In this document: positions 1,900 through 20,091 of the stretch, in pieces | Layout of the letters: each line of letters starts with the position of its first letter | How positions within the stretch are numbered: the stretch's first letter is position 1 | From: Pseudoxanthobacter soli DSM 19599 | Lineage (GTDB): Bacteria > Pseudomonadota > Alphaproteobacteria > Rhizobiales > Segnochrobactraceae | Direction of reading: 5' to 3' | DNA length: 34,877 nt | Assembly (NCBI GenBank): GCA_945898215.1 | Contig: CAMDHY010000039.1 | Span: 1-34,877 of the forward strand | The notes under the pieces: generated by a model | Seen by the model: the letters and a program-made list of their open reading frames with translations, nothing else | The model's database searches: none | What the model was told of the DNA's origin: nothing | Made by a program: the position numbers and the translations under genes

Positions 1900-2913
1900 A
1901 TGGCGGAGATGCGCAGCGGGGGCGCGGGCGACACTGCGAAGGCGGCGGCGTTGCAGGAGTCGCGGCGCGGCTCGATGCGCCAGATGATCCAGGTGCTCGG
2001 CATGCTGCCGGTGCTGATCATCATCTGCATCGCCTTCGAGCTGATGAGCGGCCGCTTCATGAGCTGGCAGAACCTCTCGATCGTCGCGCAGCAGGCCTCC
2101 ATCAACGTCGTGCTCGCCGCCGGCATGACCTTCGTCATCCTCACCGGCGGCATCGACCTGTCGGTCGGCTCGATCCTCGCCGCCTCGGCGATGGTCGCCA
2201 TCATGGGCTCGCTGATTCCGGACTGGGGGATGCTCGGCGTGCCCGCGGCGCTCGCCGTCGGCCTCGGCTTCGGGCTCCTGAACGGCGCCCTGATCGCGCT
2301 GGCAAACCTTCCACCGTTCATCGTGACACTGGGATCGCTGACGGCCGTGCGCGGCGTCGCGCGTCTGCTCGGCGAGGACACCACCGTGTTCAATCCCGAG
2401 CTGCCGTTCGCCTTCATCGGCAACGGCACGCTGTTCGGCGTGCCCTGGCTCGTCATCATCGCGCTCGCCGTCGTGGTGATCTCGTGGATCATCCTCAGGC
2501 GCACCGTGCTCGGCACCCGCATCTACGCCGTCGGCGGCAATCCCGACGCGGCGCGGCTCGCCGGCATCAAGGTCTGGCAGATCCTGCTGTTCGTCTATGG
2601 CGCCGCCGGGCTGCTCGCCGGCCTCGGCGGCGTGATGGCGGCGGCCCGCCTCTATGCGGCGAACGGCCTGCAGCTCGGCATGAGCTACGAGCTCGACGCC
2701 ATCGCCGCCGTCATCCTCGGCGGCACCTCCTTCACCGGCGGCATCGGCTCGATCTGGGGGACGCTGATCGGCGCGCTGATCATCGCCATTCTGACGAACG
2801 GGCTCATCCTCGTCGGCGTCTCGGACATCTGGCAGTACATCATCAAGGGCTTGGTGATCATCGGGGCGGTCGCACTCGACCGCTACCGCCTCAGCCACGG
2901 CGGGCGGACCTGA
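1900..2913 (+). CDS. Sugar ABC transporter permease (RbsC type)
   Basis: A 337-residue inner-membrane permease with about eight to ten hydrophobic segments. It contains the RbsC-family landmarks GMTFVILTGGIDLSVGS, GLLNGALIA, LPPFIVTLG and AAVILGGTSFTGGIGS. The ATG at 1900 is chosen because AGGAGGGG stands 7-14 bases upstream, and because the N-terminal stretch (soluble, then MRQMIQVLGMLPVLIII) fits the family; the same frame is open much further upstream only because of high GC. It lies 71 bp downstream of the ATPase gene and forms the membrane pore of the same importer. Confidence 0.95.
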   Translation: MAEMRSGGAGDTAKAAALQESRRGSMRQMIQVLGMLPVLIIICIAFELMSGRFMSWQNLSIVAQQASINVVLAAGMTFVILTGGIDLSVGSILAASAMVAIMGSLIPDWGMLGVPAALAVGLGFGLLNGALIALANLPPFIVTLGSLTAVRGVARLLGEDTTVFNPELPFAFIGNGTLFGVPWLVIIALAVVVISWIILRRTVLGTRIYAVGGNPDAARLAGIKVWQILLFVYGAAGLLAGLGGVMAAARLYAANGLQLGMSYELDAIAAVILGGTSFTGGIGSIWGTLIGALIIAILTNGLILVGVSDIWQYIIKGLVIIGAVALDRYRLSHGGRT

Positions 2914-3028
2914 TCGTCACCCGGACGGACGGCGGTCGCGCACCGCGCGGCCGTCGCAAGGACCACGAAGCGAGGCGAACCCCGCGCCAAGGCGGGCCGC
3001 CGCACATCACCACCGGAGGAGACAGAAG

Positions 3029-3964
3029 ATGACGCTTTCCCGCATCGCGATCGGCCTCGCCGTCGCCGCCGCCATGGCGGCCCCGGCCGCCGCCAAGGAC
3101 CTGAACACCGTCGGCATCTCGGTCGGCTCGCTCGGCAACCCGTTCTTCGTCGCCACCATCAAGGGCATCGAGGCGAACGCCCGGAAGATCAATCCCGACG
3201 CGAACTTCACCAACACCTCGTCCGACTACGACCTCAACAAGCAGTTCACCCAGATCGACAACTTCATCGCCGCCGGCGTCGACATCATCATGATCAACGC
3301 CGTCGATCCGGTGGCGATCGAGCCGGCGATCAAGAAGGCGCAGGCGGCCGGCATCGTCGTCGGCGCCTTCGACGTGTCGGCGAAGGGCGCCGACGTCACG
3401 GTGATGACCGACAACGTCAAGGCCGGTGCCATCGCCTGCCAGTATCTCGCCGACCACCTGAAGGGGAAGGGCGAGGTCATCATCGTCAACGGGCCGCAGG
3501 TGTCGTCGATCGTCGACCGCGTCAACGGTTGCAAGGAGACCTTCGCCAAGTATCCCGACATCAAGATCCTGTCGGACAACCAGGACGCCAAGGGTTCGCG
3601 CGACGGCGGCTTCGCGGTCGGCCAGTCGCTGCTCACCCGCTTCCCGAAGGTCGACGCGATCTTCGCCATCAACGATCCGACCGCGATCGGCGTCAATCTC
3701 GCGGCCAAGCAGCTCGGCCGCAGCGAGTTCATCATCACGGCCGTCGACGGCGCCCCGGACATCGAGGCGGAGCTGAAGTCCGGCACCTCGCTGATCAAGG
3801 CGTCCGCCTCGCAGGACCCCTACGTCATGGCCGGCCAGGCGATGACCATGGCCGCCGAGGTGCTGAAGGGCAACAAGCCGGCCGAGGCCGTCGTGCTGCT
3901 CGAGCCGAAGCTGATCACCTCGGAGAACCTCGCCGACTACCAGGGCTGGACCGCGGCGCGCTGA
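3029..3964 (+). CDS. Periplasmic sugar-binding protein of ABC transporter (RbsB type)
   Basis: The 311-residue product begins with a signal peptide (MTLSRIAIGLAVAAAMAAPAAA, cleavage near AAA-KD). The mature part is a two-lobe type I periplasmic binding fold with typical motifs VGISVGSLGNPFF, NAVDPVAIEPAIKKAQAAGI, GAIACQYLADHLKGKG and AIFAINDPTAIGVNLAAK. It captures the sugar for the RbsA/RbsC-like subunits encoded just upstream. The 115-bp gap from the permease gene ends in a strong GGAGGAGA ribosome site, and such spacing often goes with higher expression of the binding protein. It belongs to the ribose/xylose/polyol group, but the exact ligand is not evident. Confidence 0.95.
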   Translation: MTLSRIAIGLAVAAAMAAPAAAKDLNTVGISVGSLGNPFFVATIKGIEANARKINPDANFTNTSSDYDLNKQFTQIDNFIAAGVDIIMINAVDPVAIEPAIKKAQAAGIVVGAFDVSAKGADVTVMTDNVKAGAIACQYLADHLKGKGEVIIVNGPQVSSIVDRVNGCKETFAKYPDIKILSDNQDAKGSRDGGFAVGQSLLTRFPKVDAIFAINDPTAIGVNLAAKQLGRSEFIITAVDGAPDIEAELKSGTSLIKASASQDPYVMAGQAMTMAAEVLKGNKPAEAVVLLEPKLITSENLADYQGWTAAR

Positions 3965-3995
3965 GCCGCCGCCGATCCATCCTTCCAGACACGAG

Positions 3996-4025
3996 AACGC
4001 CGGCCGGAGCGATCCGGCCGGCGTT
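3996..4025 (+). terminator. Perfect 13-bp hairpin after the sugar transporter operon
   Basis: Bases 3996-4008 (AACGCCGGCCGGA) pair perfectly with 4013-4025 around a GCGA loop, 32 bases after the binding-protein stop. There is no long T tract, only TTGTCC, so it may terminate weakly or act as a 3' stabilising structure. It also separates the operon from the convergent ohr gene. Confidence 0.7.
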
Positions 4026-4083
4026 GTCCGTGTCCCGTCTCCCGCTCGCCGGGCTGCCGTGGGCGGGAGCCCGAAAGCTCCGC

Positions 4084-4503
4084 TCAGGCGAGCGTGATGC
4101 GGACGGGGATGTTGCCCTTCGTCGCGTGGGCGTAGGGGCAGACGATCTCGGCGTCGTGCAGGAGCTTCTCCGCCGTCGCCTTGTCGAGGCCCGGCAGCGA
4201 TACCTTGAGGTCGACCTCAAGGCCGAAGCCGGTGCCGTCGTCGCGCGGACCGATACCGACGTGGCCGGTCACCTTGGCGTCAGACGGAACGGTGATCTTG
4301 TCCTTGCCGGCGACGTACTTCACCGCGCCCAGGAAACAGGCGGAGAACCCGGCCGCGAACAGCTGCTCGGGGTTGGCGCCGTCGCCACCGCCGCCCATCT
4401 GCTTCGGCACCGCGAGCTTCAGATCGACGACGCCGTCGCTCGAGACGGCGCGGCCGTCGCGGCCGCCGGTGGCTGAGGCTTCCGCCGTATAGACGATGGC
4501 CAT
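4084..4503 (-). CDS. ohr: Organic hydroperoxide resistance protein, OsmC/Ohr family
   Basis: This 139-residue thiol peroxidase reduces organic hydroperoxides using two reactive cysteines. These are visible as Cys56 in FAAGFSACFLGAVKYVA and Cys122 in AEIVCPYAHATKGN. The supporting residues Arg16 (GGRDGRA) and Glu47 (NPEQLFAAG) are in place, and length and motifs match Ohr rather than general OsmC. The start at 4503 (MAIVYTAEAS) is chosen because it matches the family and has AAGGGAGA 7-14 bases upstream; the frame could extend to 4572 but that would cover the promoter. The gene is divergent from a MarR-family regulator, the classic ohr/ohrR arrangement, so induction by organic peroxides is likely. 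Confidence 0.95.
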   Translation of the reverse strand: MAIVYTAEASATGGRDGRAVSSDGVVDLKLAVPKQMGGGGDGANPEQLFAAGFSACFLGAVKYVAGKDKITVPSDAKVTGHVGIGPRDDGTGFGLEVDLKVSLPGLDKATAEKLLHDAEIVCPYAHATKGNIPVRITLA

Positions 4504-4561
4504 GTGACATCTCCCTTTTCGTTTCGGCCGGGCGTGAGGGCGCTTCCGGCCATGCATTTTC

Positions 4562-4573
4562 ATTGTGCGCAAT
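4562..4573. promoter_or_regulatory. Candidate OhrR operator, copy 1
   Basis: ATTGTGCGCAAT is near-palindromic and differs at only one position from a second copy at 4618-4629. It lies about 59 bp upstream of the ohr start in the divergent ohr/ohrR promoter region, where OhrR dimers bind AT-rich dyads in related bacteria. The assignment to OhrR is inference. Confidence 0.55.
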
Positions 4574-4617
4574 TTAATCGGGTGCTGTCAAGTCTGTTCG
4601 AGGCAGCTTGCAATGGG

Positions 4618-4629
4618 ATTTTGCGCAAT
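4618..4629. promoter_or_regulatory. Candidate OhrR operator, copy 2
   Basis: ATTTTGCGCAAT repeats the 4562 site with 11 of 12 identical bases, 56 bp away. It lies 42 bp before the preferred ohrR start, where bound OhrR would autoregulate. A partial TTGCAAT stands between the two at 4608-4614. Confidence 0.5.
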
Positions 4630-4671
4630 CGAAATGGCCGCGCTATGACGGTGGCGAGAGGGTCCCATCCG

Positions 4672-5202
4672 ATGCCGCACGCCGACGAGATCGCCACCCC
4701 CGCACCGATGCCCGAGGCGGGCGCGCTGGCGCTCGACAACCAGCTCTGCTTCGCCGTCTACGCGGCCTCGCACGCCTTCGCCCGCACCTACCGCCCGCTG
4801 CTCGAACGGCTGGGGCTCACCTATCCGCAATATCTGGTGATGCTGGTGCTTTGGGAGCGTGACGGGCTGACGGTGAAGGCGATCGGCGAGCGCCTCGGCC
4901 TTGATTCCGGCACCCTGACGCCGCTCCTGAAGCGCCTCGCCACCGCCGGCCTGGTGACGCGCAGCCGCGACGCCGAGGACGAGCGGCAGGTCCGCATTTC
5001 CCTCAGCGATGCCGGCCGGGCGCTGCGGGCCGAGGCGGCGGGACTGCCGACGGTCATCGCCGGCCGGCTCGGCCTCGATGCCGGTGAACTGAAGCGCCTG
5101 CGCCGCGAGATCGACGGGCTGCGGCTCGCCCTCGACGCCGCGATCGAGGGCGCCGAGGCGGCCTCCAAGACGGATGCTGGCGAGACCGACGCCGTCGCCT
5201 GA
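4672..5202 (+). CDS. ohrR: MarR-family transcriptional regulator, OhrR type
   Basis: A 176-residue winged-helix repressor. The N-terminal motif [16 protein letters not shown] holds the peroxide-sensing cysteine (Cys26 with this start), followed by [23 protein letters not shown] and the DNA-binding segment [21 protein letters not shown] with the wing [14 protein letters not shown]. OhrR represses ohr until its cysteine is oxidised by an organic peroxide. The start at 4672 (MPHADEI) is preferred because GAGAGGG lies 9-15 bases upstream; the ATG at 4645 in the same frame is an alternative that would add nine residues and nearly touch the second operator-like repeat. Confidence 0.9.
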
Positions 5203-14075: not shown

Positions 14076-14960
14076 GTGGTCACTCGTCATCCTCGGCTCC
14101 CCGCCGCCTCGAGGGCGGTCCGGCGCTTTTCGGTCGCCGCCGTCGCGGTGTCCGCGGCTGCGGCTTTGTCCTCGCTCGCCACCGCCCCGGCCCGCGCCGA
14201 CAGCGCCAAGGTCGGCGCCATCTACGACATCTCCTTCGGCGGCATGTCGTTCGCCCAGGGCAAGCTCTCGCTCGTCGTCGACGGCAACGCCTATTCCGCC
14301 AAAGTGGCCATGCGGCCGGCCTCGCTCGCGCGCATCTTCTCCTCGGAAAAGGTCGATGCCCAGTCCGCCGGCTGGCTGCGCGGCGGCGCGGTGCTGCCGA
14401 CCCGCTACACGATGGAGGCGAGCAACAGCGAGAAGTCGAGCTCGGTGCGCATGGACCTTTCGTCCGGCACGCTGAAGTCGGTCTCCGCCGACCCGCCGAC
14501 GAAGCCGCACCGCGACGTCGTGCCGATCCAGTCGAAGCACTGGAAGGGCGTGCTCGATCCGGTCAGCGCCGTCGTCATGCCGGTGCGCAACGCCGACGAC
14601 GCCACGGGGCCTGCCGCCTGCGCCCGCACGCTGCCGATCTTCGACGGCTGGACGCGTTTCGACGTGCCGCTGTCCTACCAGGGCACCAAGACGGTCGACA
14701 CGAAGTCCTACAAGGGAACCGTCGTCGTCTGCTCCGCCCGCTGGGTGCCGGTGTCGGGCCACAAGCGCAACAAGGACTCGGTGCGCTACATGCAGAACAA
14801 CCGCGCCCTCGAAGCGTGGCTGGCGCCGATCCCCGGCACCACCCTGCTCGTGCCCTACCGCGTCTCCGTCGGCACCATGCGCGGCACCCTGGTCGTCGAG
14901 GCGACCGACCTCAAGATCACCGGCGCGACCGTCACCGCCATCACCAGCAGCGCCGACTGA
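14076..14960 (+). CDS. Secreted DUF3108-type protein
   Basis: A 294-residue exported protein with a twin-part signal region (RAVRRFSVAAVAVSAAAALSSLATAPARA, cleavage after ARA). The mature part has features of the DUF3108 family of periplasmic or outer-membrane associated beta-rich proteins: YDISFGGMSFAQGKLSLVV near the start, a central DPVSAVVMPVR motif and a C-terminal LVPYRVSVGTMRGTLVVEAT. The function is unknown. GTG at 14076 is the start because AGCGGAGG lies 6-13 bases upstream. It is monocistronic, followed by a hairpin at 14971-14996. Confidence 0.8.
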   Translation: MVTRHPRLPAASRAVRRFSVAAVAVSAAAALSSLATAPARADSAKVGAIYDISFGGMSFAQGKLSLVVDGNAYSAKVAMRPASLARIFSSEKVDAQSAGWLRGGAVLPTRYTMEASNSEKSSSVRMDLSSGTLKSVSADPPTKPHRDVVPIQSKHWKGVLDPVSAVVMPVRNADDATGPAACARTLPIFDGWTRFDVPLSYQGTKTVDTKSYKGTVVVCSARWVPVSGHKRNKDSVRYMQNNRALEAWLAPIPGTTLLVPYRVSVGTMRGTLVVEATDLKITGATVTAITSSAD

Positions 14961-14970
14961 CCCGCGCGAC

Positions 14971-14996
14971 GCTCGATCGGCGAGCGGATCGAGCGC
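14971..14996 (+). terminator. Hairpin after the DUF3108 gene
   Basis: CGCTCGATC (14971-14979) pairs perfectly with GATCGAGCG (14988-14996) around an 8-base loop, 10 bp after the stop, with further GC pairing on both sides. It lacks a T tract, so it is a possible but unproven terminator. Confidence 0.5.
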
Positions 14997-15021
14997 GCGC
15001 CGACGATGATTTCGGCCGCTT

Positions 15022-15210
15022 GACTCACGCGACGATCGGAGTCCTTGCGACAACTCGTCCGCTGCCACCGAGTCGTTCGCCGGGCAAACCGAGAAAACGC
15101 AAGATATCGTGGGTGGGCCCCGAGTCTTTCCCAAGTCTCGTAGGGAACAAAGCCGGACTCGGGGCGAGTCGTCGATTCGGGCCGGATTCGTTCGGGACTC
15201 GTTCCGATTC
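15022..15210. promoter_or_regulatory. Cluster of ten GANTC (CcrM) sites upstream of the helicase gene
   Basis: GANTC begins at 15022, 15039, 15070, 15122, 15156, 15166, 15174, 15185, 15196 and 15206. The last six are spaced 10, 8, 11, 11 and 10 bp and all read GANTCG, while the middle base varies (C, G, T, T, C, T). At about 68% GC fewer than one site would be expected in 189 bp. In alphaproteobacteria CcrM methylates the adenine in GANTC, and GcrA, encoded 4.4 kb downstream, recognises such sites. The cluster fills the 411-bp gap before the helicase start and contains no credible gene. The regulatory role is inference. Confidence 0.75.
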
Positions 15211-15371
15211 GCCGCGTCGCGCGTTGTACTGTCGGCGGTGCGGTGCACTGGAGCGAACGTGGACACCCACGAGAGCCCCTCTATCGCTGGAGCGCCGCCG
15301 CCCGGCCGTGCTATGAGGCAGCCGTGCCCTCCACCCGCCGCCCGGGTCCAACCGGCCGGCCTGGGAAGTCG

Positions 15372-18300
15372 ATGAACGTCGAGCCGAGATCCGCGTCCGC
15401 CTCCGTCGTCCGTTCGCGTTCGGTCACCGCCGTCCTCGGGCCGACCAACACCGGCAAGACACACCTCGCGATCGAGCGCATGATCGCGCACGGCAGCGGC
15501 CTCATCGGCCTGCCGCTGCGGCTCCTCGCCCGCGAGGTTTACAACCGCGTCGCCGCCCGTGTCGGCCCGGACGCCGTCGCCCTCGTCACCGGCGAGGAGC
15601 GCATCGTGCCGCCGTCGCCGCGCTTCACCGTCTGCACGGTCGAGGCGATGCCGCGCGACGCCGACGTGTCGTTCCTGGCGGTCGACGAGGTGCAACTCGC
15701 CGGCGACCTCGAGCGAGGCCGCGTCTTCACCGACCGCATCCTGAATGCCCGCGGCCGCGACGAGACGCTGCTGCTCGGCGCCACCACCGTCCGGCCAATG
15801 CTGGAAAAGCTCATCCCCGGCCTCAACGTGGTGACCAGGCCGCGCATGTCGGTTCTCGCCTATGCGGGCTCGAAGAAGATCACCCGCCTGCCGGCCCGCA
15901 GCGCCATCGTCGCCTTCTCCGCCGACGAGGTCTACGCCATTGCCGAGCTGATCCGCCGCCAGCGCGGCGGCGCGGCGGTGGTGCTCGGCTCGCTCTCGCC
16001 GCGCACCCGCAACGCCCAGGTCGAGCTCTTCCAGGCCGGCGACGTCGAGTTCCTCGTCGCCACAGACGCCATCGGCATGGGACTCAATCTCGACGTCGAC
16101 CACGTCGCGTTTGCCGGCGACCGCAAGTTCGACGGCTACCAGTACCGGGCGCTGAACGCCGCCGAGCTCGGCCAGATCGCCGGGCGCGCCGGCCGCCACA
16201 TGCGCGACGGCACCTTCGGCGTCACCGGCCGCGTCTCCCCCTTCGACAACGAGATGGTCGAGGCGCTGGAGAGCCACCGCTTCCAGTCGCTGCGGGTCCT
16301 GCAGTGGCGCAACCCGGATCTCGATTTCGCCTCCCTCGACGCGCTCCGCCGCTCGCTCGACGAGCCGCCGCGCCAGGAGGGCCTGACGCGGGCGCCGCAG
16401 GCCGAGGATTCCGTCAGCCTCGACTATGCCGCCCGCGACCCGGACATCCGCGCGCTCGCCTCGACGCGGGCCCGCGTCTCGCTGCTCTGGGACATCTGCC
16501 AGGTGCCCGACTACCGGCGCATCGCCCCGGCCAATCATGCCGATCTGGTGCTCGCCCTCTACGGTTTCATCGCCCGGTCGGGTAGGATACCGGACGACTG
16601 GTTCGCCCGGCAGGTCGACCAGTCGGACCGCACCGACGGCGATATCGATGCGCTTTCCAACCGGATCGCGCACGTTCGGACATGGACTTATGTCGCCAAT
16701 CGTGGAGATTGGCTCGCCGATCCCGCGCACTGGCGCGGAGTCACACGAGATGTCGAGGATCGACTCTCCGACGCCCTCCACGAACGGCTGATCGGCCGCT
16801 TCGTCGACCGGCGAACGAGCGTCCTGATGAAACGCCTGAGAGAAAACGCGATGCTCGAAGCGGAGATCACGCCGGCGGGAGACGTCTCCGTCGAGGGCCA
16901 GCACGTCGGACGCCTCGCCGGCTTCCGCTTCGTCGCCGACACTGGCGGCGGCGGCGGCGGCGACGGCCCGGAGGTCAAGGCGCTGCGCAGCGCCGCCGCC
17001 AAGGCGCTCGCCGGCGAGATCGAGGCGCGCGCCGACCGCCTCGGCCGCGCGACCGACACCGACCTGGTGCTGGCTGCCGACGGCGCGATCCGCTGGCTCG
17101 GCGAGCCGGTGGCGAAGCTCATCCCCGGCGACGACGTGCTGACGCCCGGCTTCGTCGTGCTCGCCGACGACCAGCTTACCGGTCCGGCCCGCGAGCGGGT
17201 GCAGGCGCGGCTCGCCACTTGGCTCAAGACCCAGGTCGAGACGCTGCTGAAGCCGCTCATCGACCTGCGCAACGCCACCGAACTGCCCGGTCTGCCGCGC
17301 GGCATCGCCTTCCGCATCGCCGAGGCGCTCGGCGTCGTCGAGCGGCCGGCGATCGCCGACGACGTCAAGGGCCTCGACCAGGCGGCTCGCGCTGGCCTGC
17401 GCTCGCTCGGCGTGCGCTTCGGCGCCTACCATCTGTTCGTGCCGGCCCTCCTGAAGCCGGCACCGAGCCGGCTCCTCGCCGAGCTCTGGGCGCTGAAGCA
17501 CGCGAGCCTCGACGTGCCGGGCCTCCTTGAGGTGCCGCAGCTCTCCGCCTCCGGGCGGACCTCCATCCCGGTCGACCCGGCCGTGCCGGTCGATCTCTAC
17601 CGCGTCTGCGGCTTCAAGGCCTGCGGCGGGCGTGCCGTGCGCCTCGACATCCTCGAGCGCCTCGCCGACCTCATCCGACCGATCCTCGCCTGGCGGCCCG
17701 GCCCCGAGGCGGGGCCGATGCCCGACGGCGCGCACCCGGCCGGCGGCTTCATGGCCACCGTCCGCATGACGTCGCTGGTCGGCTGCTCCGGCGAGGACTT
17801 CGCCTCCATCCTGCGCGGCCTCGGCTACCGCATGGACCGCCGCCCGCTGCCCGTCCGCCCGCCGGAGGCCCCGGCCGCCGCGGTGACGCCGCCGACGGCG
17901 GATGCCGCCACCGCCCCGGAGGCCGTCGAGGCTGACGGGGCGGATACCGCGACCGAGCCCACCTTCGACACCGCCGTCGACGCCCCGATGGAGGCCGAGG
18001 CCGCCACGCCGGACGACGTCGGCACCGAGGCTGCCGATGCCATCGAAGCGTCGGCCACGCCCGAGGAAGATCGCGAGCCGCCGGTGGCGACAGAGAGCGC
18101 CGAGGGCCCGGGCGCCGAGGCGGCGGAAGCCGCTGAGGGTAACGCCGACCCGTCGGAAGCCGCCGAGATGGAAGCCGCGTCCGAGGAGTTCGAGCCGAAG
18201 GTCGACCCCGACGACGCCGCAGCATCCACCGAGGCGCCCGAGGTCGAGGCGGTCGCCGCTCCGGTCGATGCCGCCGACGAGGCGTCTGCGTCCGACGAGG

Positions 18301-18965
18301 CCCCCGCATCCGAGATCACCGACGCGACTGAAGAAGCCGCTGCAGCCGCAGACGTCGCCGTCTCCGAGGAGACCGCCGCTGCCGAGGCCGTGTCTGTCGC
18401 CGCCGCAGAGGCGTCCGACGGCGAGCCGGTCGCGGCCGCCGAGCCGGTGCTGGTCGAGGTCTGGCGTCCCGGCCGTCCCGAGCGGCGTGGCGAGCCGCGG
18501 CAGCGCGGTAACCGCGACCGCCAGCCGGACCGTCAGGCCGACCGCCGCAGCGATCGTGGCCCGCGCCGGGCCGAGAACGCCCCGGCCGCCGCCGTTGCCC
18601 CCAGCGAGGCACCCGCCGCAGGCGAGGCGCGCCCGGACCGCCGTCCAGACCGTCCCCGCGGCGACGACCGCCGCGGACGTCCGCCGCAGGGCCAGGGCCG
18701 TCCGGCGGAAGGCCGCAGTGGCGGCCGTCCCGGCGGTGATCGGCCCGAGGGTCAGCGGGCGCGCGACGACCGTCCGCACAACGACCGTCCACGCGACGAT
18801 CGCCCCCGGGACGAGCGTCCGCGCAACGACCGGCCGCGCGAGGATCGCCCCCGCGACGACCGCCCGCGCGACAGTGGCCGCGGCCGCCAGCCCGATCCGA
18901 ACTCGCCCTTCGCCGCCCTCGCGGCCTTGAAGGCCGATCTCGAGCGGCGGGCGAAGGAGCGGTGA
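15372..18965 (+). CDS. SUV3-like DEAD/DExH RNA helicase with acidic and RD-repeat tails
   Basis: A 1197-residue protein. The first ~830 residues are an SF2 helicase of the SUV3 type: GPTNTGKT (residues 23-30), DEVQ in LAVDEVQLAGDLERG, LLGATTV, and QIAGRAGRH as motif VI. Such enzymes unwind RNA and work with exoribonucleases in RNA turnover. Next comes a ~200-residue acidic Ala/Glu/Asp-rich linker, then a basic tail of Arg/Asp/Pro repeats from about residue 1040 (seven 5-residue DRPRD-type units at 1133-1167). The start at 15372 (MNVEPRS) is chosen because the family P-loop comes about 20 residues in. An upstream extension to 15243 is open but its sequence looks random. The S4 protein gene follows in 58 bp. 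Confidence 0.9.
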   Translation: MNVEPRSASASVVRSRSVTAVLGPTNTGKTHLAIERMIAHGSGLIGLPLRLLAREVYNRVAARVGPDAVALVTGEERIVPPSPRFTVCTVEAMPRDADVSFLAVDEVQLAGDLERGRVFTDRILNARGRDETLLLGATTVRPMLEKLIPGLNVVTRPRMSVLAYAGSKKITRLPARSAIVAFSADEVYAIAELIRRQRGGAAVVLGSLSPRTRNAQVELFQAGDVEFLVATDAIGMGLNLDVDHVAFAGDRKFDGYQYRALNAAELGQIAGRAGRHMRDGTFGVTGRVSPFDNEMVEALESHRFQSLRVLQWRNPDLDFASLDALRRSLDEPPRQEGLTRAPQAEDSVSLDYAARDPDIRALASTRARVSLLWDICQVPDYRRIAPANHADLVLALYGFIARSGRIPDDWFARQVDQSDRTDGDIDALSNRIAHVRTWTYVANRGDWLADPAHWRGVTRDVEDRLSDALHERLIGRFVDRRTSVLMKRLRENAMLEAEITPAGDVSVEGQHVGRLAGFRFVADTGGGGGGDGPEVKALRSAAAKALAGEIEARADRLGRATDTDLVLAADGAIRWLGEPVAKLIPGDDVLTPGFVVLADDQLTGPARERVQARLATWLKTQVETLLKPLIDLRNATELPGLPRGIAFRIAEALGVVERPAIADDVKGLDQAARAGLRSLGVRFGAYHLFVPALLKPAPSRLLAELWALKHASLDVPGLLEVPQLSASGRTSIPVDPAVPVDLYRVCGFKACGGRAVRLDILERLADLIRPILAWRPGPEAGPMPDGAHPAGGFMATVRMTSLVGCSGEDFASILRGLGYRMDRRPLPVRPPEAPAAAVTPPTADAATAPEAVEADGADTATEPTFDTAVDAPMEAEAATPDDVGTEAADAIEASATPEEDREPPVATESAEGPGAEAAEAAEGNADPSEAAEMEAASEEFEPKVDPDDAAASTEAPEVEAVAAPVDAADEASASDEAPASEITDATEEAAAAADVAVSEETAAAEAVSVAAAEASDGEPVAAAEPVLVEVWRPGRPERRGEPRQRGNRDRQPDRQADRRSDRGPRRAENAPAAAVAPSEAPAAGEARPDRRPDRPRGDDRRGRPPQGQGRPAEGRSGGRPGGDRPEGQRARDDRPHNDRPRDDRPRDERPRNDRPREDRPRDDRPRDSGRGRQPDPNSPFAALAALKADLERRAKER
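18768..18872 (+). repeat. Seven 15-bp tandem repeats coding for (D/E)RP(R/H)(D/N/E)
   Basis: Seven consecutive units encode DRPHN, DRPRD, DRPRD, ERPRN, DRPRE, DRPRD and DRPRD in the helicase tail. Arg is CGT, CGC or CGG and Pro is CCG, CCA or CCC between units, so the peptide pattern is kept while codons drift. This suggests selection for a flexible charged RNA-binding tail. Confidence 0.85.
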
Positions 18966-19023: not shown

Positions 19024-19341
19024 ATGACGATCGCGGCGCAGCGTCTCGACAAATGGCTGTGGTTCGCCCGCGTGGTGAAGACACGACCGCTCGCCAAGGC
19101 GCTCGTCGAGGCGGGCAAGGTGCGCGTCAACCGCGACCGCGTCACCAGCGCCGACCGGCTGGTGCGCCCCGGCGACGTGCTCACCGTCGTCGTCGGCAGC
19201 CGGGTGCGGGTGCTGGAGGTCATCGGCTTCGCCGAGCGCCGGGGCGACGCCGCTTCCGTCGCATCCCTCGCCCTCGATCGCTCGCCGGCCCCGCCGGGTT
19301 CAGTTGCGGGCGACGAGGGCACCGACGACGAAGGCGAGTGA
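19024..19341 (+). CDS. S4-domain RNA-binding protein (HslR/Hsp15-like)
   Basis: A 105-residue protein with an N-terminal S4 domain: QRLDKWLWFARVVKTRPLAKALVEAGKVRVNRDRVTSADRLVRPGDVLTV. It ends in an acidic low-complexity tail (GDEGTDDEGE). S4 proteins of this type bind rRNA; Hsp15 recycles stalled 50S subunits. It is close behind the SUV3-like helicase, a pairing I know from other alphaproteobacteria, pointing to a shared role in RNA or ribosome maintenance. The ATG at 19024 is favoured over a nearby out-of-frame ATG at 19010. Confidence 0.92.
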   Translation: MTIAAQRLDKWLWFARVVKTRPLAKALVEAGKVRVNRDRVTSADRLVRPGDVLTVVVGSRVRVLEVIGFAERRGDAASVASLALDRSPAPPGSVAGDEGTDDEGE

Positions 19342-19575
19342 ACGACTCGCCGAACTGACCTTGGCTGGGGAAAACCCCCTTCGCCCCGTCACAGTCGGCC
19401 GCCGACTCTTGTCAGAGAGTCACGGCATATTGTAGCGTCCGGGCGTACAGACACGACATATCGTGTCCGTCGCACTCGAAAGTTCCCGACACCACCCCTG
19501 CAGCGTCAGGCGGGCTCCCGTCGCCCGGCGCTCTCGGATTCGGAGTCCGGTTTCGATACGGAAGGATGAGGCGAC
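19342..19575. promoter_or_regulatory. gcrA promoter region with five GANTC sites
   Basis: GANTC occurs at 19344, 19394, 19407, 19537 and 19543, far more than the one or fewer expected at this GC content. The last two overlap by sharing base pairs around GATTCGGAGTC, 29-39 bp before the gcrA start. A GACACGA/TCGTGTC dyad lies at 19450-19467. GGAAGGATGAGG precedes the ATG. Control of gcrA by CcrM methylation is plausible but not shown by sequence alone. Confidence 0.65.
19450..19467. promoter_or_regulatory. Inverted repeat upstream of gcrA
   Basis: GACACGA (19450-19456), CATA, TCGTGTC (19461-19467) is a perfect 7-bp dyad with a 4-bp centre, 108 bp before the gcrA ATG. It looks like a protein-binding operator and not a terminator, since no T tract follows. 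The binding protein is unknown. Confidence 0.5.
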
Positions 19576-20091
19576 ATGTCCTGGACCGACGAGCGGGTCG
19601 ATACGCTGAAGCGCCTGTGGACGGACGGCCTCAGCGCCAGCCAGATCGCCGCCTCCCTCGGCGAGGTGACGCGCAACGCCGTGATCGGCAAGATCCACCG
19701 GCTGGGCCTGTCCGGCCGCGCCCGCACCGGCCAGCCCTCGATGGCGCCGGCCCACAAGACGAAGCCGGCGCCGGTCGTCCGGCGCAGCGCCCGCCCGACG
19801 GTCGCCACCGTCGGCAACACGGCGCTCGCCACGGCCGAGCCCGCCTACGTGGTGGCGACGCGGCCCGAGCCGGAGCCGATGGGCGAGGTGGTCTCGATCG
19901 GCCAGCGCGTCACCATCATGATGCTGACCGAGCAGACCTGCCGCTGGCCGATCGGCGATCCCGGCAGCGAGGGCTTCACCTTCTGCGGCCGCCGCTCGGA
20001 CACCGGCGTGCCCTACTGCACCGCCCATGCCCGCATCGCCTACCAGCCGGCCGAGCGCCGCCGCGACCGCGGCCACCACCGCGATCACTGA
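19576..20091 (+). CDS. gcrA: GcrA cell-cycle regulator
   Basis: A 171-residue protein. The N-terminal helix-turn-helix MSWTDERVDTLKRLWTDGLSASQIAASLGEVTRNAVIGKIHRLGLSGR is diagnostic of GcrA, the alphaproteobacterial factor that binds sigma-70 RNA polymerase and reads CcrM-methylated GANTC promoters. A Pro/Ala-rich linker leads to the C-terminal sigma-interacting domain with the conserved TCRWPIGDPGSEGFTFCG and the CTAHARIAYQ end. Placement directly behind the helicase-S4 pair is notable. It is preceded by its own GANTC-rich region. Confidence 0.96.
   Translation: MSWTDERVDTLKRLWTDGLSASQIAASLGEVTRNAVIGKIHRLGLSGRARTGQPSMAPAHKTKPAPVVRRSARPTVATVGNTALATAEPAYVVATRPEPEPMGEVVSIGQRVTIMMLTEQTCRWPIGDPGSEGFTFCGRRSDTGVPYCTAHARIAYQPAERRRDRGHHRDH

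Follow-up and report, generated by a model that had tools for sequence, protein, structure and literature searches.

GANTC is the methylation target of CcrM. Among the described systems closest to the locus analysed here, GcrA has the published motif YGAKTCK (PMC7987155), and a GcrA target with three GAnTC sites has been reported (PMC3667746). MucR shields GANTC from CcrM, and at the CCNA_00169 promoter four GANTCs are shielded from CcrM by a bound protein (PMC5172544); according to PMC7987155, MucR has no identified consensus in C. crescentus. Table 1 of PMC5172544 also holds a pair of C. crescentus GANTCs at 738020 and 738031, 11 bp apart between CCNA_00681 and CCNA_00682, which are marked as persistently unmethylated and not as MucR targets. 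LexA boxes of alphaproteobacteria have the form GTTC-N7-GTTC, which readily permits an overlap with GANTC (PMC7987155).

The locus compared with these systems is an intergenic array of ten GANTC sites in Pseudoxanthobacter soli DSM 19599 (4.78 Mb, 224 contigs), found in a stretch of 34,877 nucleotides that was analysed as a whole and is called the window below. It lies between a DUF3108 gene (14076–14960, plus strand, Pfam DUF3108) and the gene for a Suv3-like helicase (15372–18965, plus strand, Pfam DEXQc_Suv3 and Helicase_C, with its ATG at 15372), which is followed by an S4-domain gene ending at 19341 and a gcrA reading frame at 19576–20091, the product of which matches Pfam GcrA at 189 bits. 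The stretch from the end of the S4 gene towards gcrA (19344–19547) is also GANTC-dense for this genome, with sites at 19344, 19404, 19417, 19537 and 19543. A sigma-70 consensus scan of 14900–15400 found no promoter at the array; a promoter-like pair GTGGAC-N17-TATCGC, seen by eye and missing from the consensus scan, lies at 15259–15287, about 50 bp past the array, so that an element at the array would act from upstream.

All ten sites were confirmed at the positions given by the initial annotation, namely 15022, 15039, 15070, 15122, 15156, 15166, 15174, 15185, 15196 and 15206, within 189 bp. The whole window holds 42 GANTCs against 175 expected from shuffles, and 300 kb of the same genome, sampled as 15 stretches of 20 kb, hold 282 (0.94/kb), with seven other words of like make-up at 0.80–2.22/kb in the same sample. 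The sample contains at most four GANTCs per 189 bp and three per 60 bp, compared with ten and six in the array; dinucleotide shuffling of the intergenic region, repeated 2000 times, never reached ten; and the pattern GANTCN{3,7}GANTCN{3,7}GANTC has six forward matches genome-wide, four of them inside the array. The array exceeds every sampled stretch, and a chance origin is ruled out by the sampled densities, the shuffles and the pattern count. A simple tandem repeat of near-identical head-to-tail units, which the same annotation had already doubted, is likewise ruled out by TRF, which reports just 1.9 copies of 11 bp at 15184–15204 (score 35). The claim that the six close-set sites share roughly one face of the helix held for the last four, which fall within about 35 degrees at 10.5 bp per turn; since the second gap is 8 bp, the first two lie about 50–105 degrees off.

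Judged by what is conserved around it, the array belongs to an old and rigid DNA element, which measures about 80 bp, or about 110 bp with an outer box. Model R2 matches this element at 15131–15209 on the plus strand (55.6 bits, E 8.3e-17), its two other matches in the window reaching 6.2 and 3.6 bits. All of the parts that follow are given on the plus strand. The outer box, CAAGATATCG (15100–15109), fits CnAnATnTnG, and the inner box, CCAAGTCTCG (15131–15140 in the R2 alignment), which forms the left end of the element, differs from it by one change. The two boxes are exactly 31 bp apart in the window, and a like outer box at the same 31-bp distance was seen by eye in the Mesorhizobium and Bradyrhizobium-type alignments. 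A left half-site, GAAC (15145–15148, within GGGAACAAA), stands 29 bp before the core GATTCG (15174–15179), and a right half-site, GTTC (15190–15193), inverted with respect to the left one, is repeated 11 bp further on by a second, conserved GTTC (15201–15204). Counted from the core, the remaining close-set GANTCs occupy places -18 (GACTC, 15156–15160), -8 (GAGTC, 15166–15170), +11 (GATTC, 15185–15189, overlapping TTCGTTC), +22 (GACTC, 15196–15200) and +32 (GATTC, 15206–15210). Five of the six close-set sites are conserved places of the element and the sixth, at 15206, is not; the sites within 15022–15074 lie upstream of both the element and its outer box, and the site at 15122 lies between the two boxes.

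The consensus of 46 sequences reads CnAnATnTnG-CnGTGAAC(A/G)AAnCCnGA...GAGTCAGCGATTCGGnCCCGATTCGTTCCAGACTCGTTCCA...TTAA and is almost free of gaps, and the alignments as a whole run nearly gapless across about 80 bp, with 11-bp steps. In two loci (L160 and L161) the sequence surrounding the centre of the element forms a perfect inverted repeat of 12 bp, GCCGTGAACGAA/TTCGTTCACGGC. Coding sequence was set aside by eye, because the variable positions come in blocks and follow no codon pattern. A small-RNA gene or a leader RNA of conserved sequence could account for units that mostly stand 200–290 bp apart in tandem, and for the fold z-scores of -2.0 and -2.2 obtained for L160 and L071; against this, the window gave a z-score of -0.9 and L086 one of 0.1, covariation was absent (no pair changed on both sides among 46 sequences), no Rfam family reached its gathering score in seven loci, with sub-threshold matches only near the window's site, and the class-wide alignment is nearly ungapped. 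We therefore consider an RNA extremely unlikely: a near-gapless stretch of about 80 bp with 11-bp steps and no covariation fits the geometry of DNA, not RNA or protein coding. In the literature searched, no publication on the element was recognised.

To place the element among relatives, we compared the upstream regions of 110 helicase loci, made up of 30 that include the window's own and the best 80 named ones; these are the best helicase matches and not a random sample, and the counts are uncorrected for relatedness. With fixed half-site distances around a GATTCG anchor, the element is present in 101 of the 110. The nine loci in which it was not found are L015, L018, five Pseudovibrio loci (L037–L040 and L042), L048 and L070. 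For the initial annotation, absence of the array from all close relatives would have helped to refute its proposal. The array is in fact kept in most of the related helicase loci compared. The relatives search turned up two genomes from the same family and none from the same genus; of the two, G001 has all five conserved sites and G002 the element with fewer GANTCs. One of the loci without the element, L018 (genome G065), has no GANTC at all in the 900 bp upstream of its helicase and 0.28/kb elsewhere in the locus; this genome has GcrA, and neither model R1 nor model R2 matched it at E<=1.

The 101 loci hold 160 copies, with overlapping anchors 11 bp apart in L010 and L109 counted as one and with GATTCG demanded by the anchor, so that a degenerate copy lacking it in L103 stands outside the count. 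There are 54 loci with one copy, 36 with two, 10 with three and one with four, and 47 of the 59 copy-to-copy distances measure 200–290 bp. Among the 80 named loci all strong matches share the orientation of the helicase, the minus-strand matches being few, weak and either over plus-strand copies or due to chance. Ahead of the distal copy, four of ten rows of Mesorhizobium loci in alignment A2 (L107, L094, L093 and L100) carry TGTGGATAA, which we take to resemble a DnaA box, and TTATCCACA also occurs near the element in L162 and L166.

Of 101 genomes from the order, 87 showed the element in a search with model R1 at E<=1, the best E exceeding 0.001 in 15 of these; because its source loci were picked by GANTC-N3-GATTCG, R1 favours array-bearing copies. 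Searched again with R2, 20 genomes with no or weak matches yielded six at E<=1, one of them strong (G389, 54 bits), and two Pseudovibrio genomes gave no R2 match anywhere at E<=1. In the class as a whole, R1 matched 32 of 289 genomes at E<=0.01, and in 22 of 28 loci newly cut from this search the helicase follows within about 1 kb downstream. In one further genome (G300) it lies about 4.7 kb downstream, in another (G154) the element is present and no helicase was found at E<=1e-30, and the remaining four loci (E 0.001–0.003) are probably chance matches. Alignment A5 brings together 34 sequences, 23 of them from the class search (L173 left out), in which near-identical genomes such as L171 and L172 are not independent and one row, L170, belongs to the window's own order. 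Across all 34, both the left GAAC and the core GATTCG are invariant, and the core is the only GANTC kept class-wide. Among the 23 class-search copies, 13 have GANTC at the core alone and 10 have two or three, with place -18 occupied in four, -8 in five, +11 in six and +22 in none. On these counts +22 looks special to Hyphomicrobiales, and -18, -8 and +11 appear each to have been gained several times or lost several times.

In the 101 nearest copies the GANTC is intact at -18 in 40, at -8 in 79, at +11 in 59, at +22 in 65 and at +32 in 3. For the first four of these places, the corresponding counts among the other 59 copies are 3, 8, 33 and 8. The half-sites GAAC and GTTC and the centre are better kept than these extra GANTCs, with the left GAAC in 89 of the 101 nearest copies, the right GTTC, itself part of the anchor, in 100, and the core GATTCG in all 101 by construction of the anchor. 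In the 47 loci with several copies the proximal copy has more extra GANTCs in 35, equally many in five and fewer in seven, six of the seven being Bradyrhizobium-type loci with the array in the distal copy. The initial annotation had proposed that the motif is selected as GANTC, with a free middle base. Place +22 does look selected in this way, since its middle base varies while GA.TC stays: single changes hit the middle base nine times and another position once (93 near-unique elements, uncorrected for kinship), and a middle base other than C occurs in Breoghania, Tardiphaga, Ciceribacter, Ochrobactrum, Brucella and further loci. As a general rule the proposal was not supported. At -8, 77 of the 79 intact sites carry G in the middle, and at +11 the middle T is found in all 101 nearest copies and the methylatable A in just 65, so that something besides methylation holds this T; class-wide, moreover, the 13 copies with the core alone run against general selection for GANTC. 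A middle base fixed at most places (-8, core and +11) argues for a sequence-specific binder.

The GTTC repeat invites a reading as a LexA operator, in which GTTC-N7-GTTC would be an SOS box and the helicase a DNA-damage gene. The window has a perfect GTTC-N7-GTTC at 15190–15204, as have 91 of the 101 nearest copies; only 7 of the 59 other copies have it, and five class-search rows show GATC or GGTC in place of the second GTTC. The base before the second GTTC also speaks against an SOS box. Among the 91 nearest copies with the repeat, 80 have C there, 8 have T and 3 have G. In this genome, by contrast, the boxes that precede the lexA and recA matches close with TGTTC, and T likewise stands before the second GTTC in 14 of the 15 matches genome-wide whose spacer is A+T-rich (at least 5/7). 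With a C at this position and only 2/7 A/T in its spacer, the element is not of the A+T-rich, TGTTC type of the genome's own lexA and recA boxes. An ordinary LexA box was thus not found at the element, and we regard LexA control as highly unlikely.

A second reading, which goes back to the initial annotation, draws on the GcrA/CcrM system: the helicase promoter would attract GcrA and RNA polymerase through its methylated GANTCs, and the array would tune cell-cycle timing. The core GATTCG, preceded by C, fits the published YGAKTCK (PMC7987155), the free-middle pattern at +22 is as expected under CcrM selection, and the source genome encodes GcrA. Genomes with a GcrA match account, by eye, for all 22 class loci with a helicase within 1 kb, compared with 179 of 289 genomes overall. 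This co-occurrence is confounded by kinship, since with filters off R2 gave E<1e-3 in just 2 of 60 GcrA-positive helicase upstream regions without an R1 match. The 38 GcrA-negative upstream regions, one of them 224 bp long, gave one partial R2 match of 16 bits at E<1e-3 and two from one family at 9–10 bits (E about 0.03). GcrA is present in 13 of 14 genomes of the order that lack an R1 match. The 13 class-search copies in which the core GANTC stands alone, with GAAC kept in all, also tell against this reading. The initial annotation had further tied the array to the gcrA gene nearby, a link that did not hold up: gcrA is not a conserved neighbour of the helicase, tblastn placing it beside 0 of 110 helicase loci, 64 of which, reaching 5 kb downstream, are informative, and in the same-family genomes the two genes are about 533 kb (G001) and 241 kb (G002) apart. 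This non-conserved adjacency rules out the gcrA neighbourhood as the cause of the array. A GcrA/CcrM promoter is, on balance, an unlikely explanation of the element.

Copies away from the helicase raise a third reading, in which the site would serve to organise, replicate or segregate the chromosome and not to control one gene, the helicase neighbourhood being only its usual address. A few genomes carry further element clusters elsewhere. Four tandem short-form copies lie between convergent reading frames at about 2606–3460 of L147 (G066) and three at about 2404–3148 of L148 (G021), one of the convergent frames, which were named by eye, being dehydrogenase E1-like, with cores like GATTCGGACATGGTTCGTTC and GTTAAC. 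Since they sit between convergent frames, these clusters cannot be ordinary promoters. In L152 (G075, 2537–4692), where the helicase and DUF3108 genes enclose a 416-aa frame that matches no Pfam family, copies of the element flank this frame. In L336, part of a MAG (G389), the element follows DUF3108 at 1501–1583 and is itself followed by a frame that looks transposase-like by eye, the helicase being on another contig (L048). The convergent settings in two genomes, the direct tandem copies with 47 of 59 spacings at 200–290 bp, and the retention of the element where the helicase is not found or lies elsewhere (G154 and G389) would all suit a chromosome site. What weighs against it is that the element, wherever strongly matched in the 80 named loci, keeps the orientation of the helicase, that it mostly lies close to this gene, and that its position varies along single-contig genomes. 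We judge a pure chromosome site improbable; at the same time, the copies away from the helicase in two genomes, in G154 and in one MAG mean that a role as helicase operator alone does not account for all copies either, and they leave room for a chromosome-level role.

The reading we prefer starts from what the comparisons give directly, namely the presence, rigid spacing, positional conservation, copy number and kept bases of the element. The spacing stays rigid across almost eight turns of the helix, the half-sites are inverted, the steps measure 11 bp and bases are fixed; together these features suggest an oligomeric, sequence-specific DNA-binding protein, and the element is probably the landing pad of such a putative protein. 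With a probability of about one half, we take it to be a conserved operator to which an oligomeric DNA-binding protein would attach and on which CcrM sites are superimposed, where the binding itself, the control of the helicase and any effect of methylation are inferred from sequence comparison. The look of the array agrees with the binding platform suggested in the initial annotation, the binder itself being putative. In such a scheme the oligomer would bind GNGAAC and GTTCNC, inverted half-sites that stand about 45 bp from each other, plus the centre GATTCG, through helically spaced contacts aided by the CnAnATnTnG boxes, and the element would serve as operator of the Suv3-like helicase gene that follows it. 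Within Hyphomicrobiales, extra GANTCs inside the bound region would as a rule have filled a single copy, mostly the helicase-proximal one. Because these CcrM sites fall within the bound stretch, methylation and binding could affect each other, whether by competing or by cooperating, and a passing replication fork could reset the site.

More tentatively, and with some doubt, the element might have a dedicated binder of its own and represent an old, rigid, often multi-copy nucleoprotein site of an undescribed class, which in Hyphomicrobiales would have become a methylation-sensitive, replication-timed switch through its phased CcrM sites. A rigid non-coding element that Hyphomicrobiales share with part of the rest of the class, and that sits at one gene, points to a strong, unrecognised constraint. 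Its binder, if identified, would reveal by what means CcrM methylation is read, or blocked, at sites other than simple GcrA promoters, and for what reason an RNA helicase of the Suv3 type requires control of this kind. Where tandem copies lie between convergent genes, one may further ask whether the element acts at the level of the chromosome.

Set beside the known systems, the element shares features with three of them. Like the GcrA/CcrM promoters of Caulobacter and Brevundimonas, it places GANTC upstream of a gene and has a core that fits YGAKTCK (PMC7987155); unlike them, it holds its GANTCs within a longer rigid element, the half-sites and boxes of which outlast the loss of GANTC. With the MucR-shielded hypomethylated loci it has in common several GANTCs in one intergenic region (PMC5172544), whereas a strict consensus marks this element and none has been identified for MucR in C. 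crescentus (PMC7987155). It resembles a LexA (SOS) box in its 11-bp direct GTTC repeat, and differs from one in its G+C-rich spacer, in the C before the second GTTC and in being part of a larger inverted arrangement.
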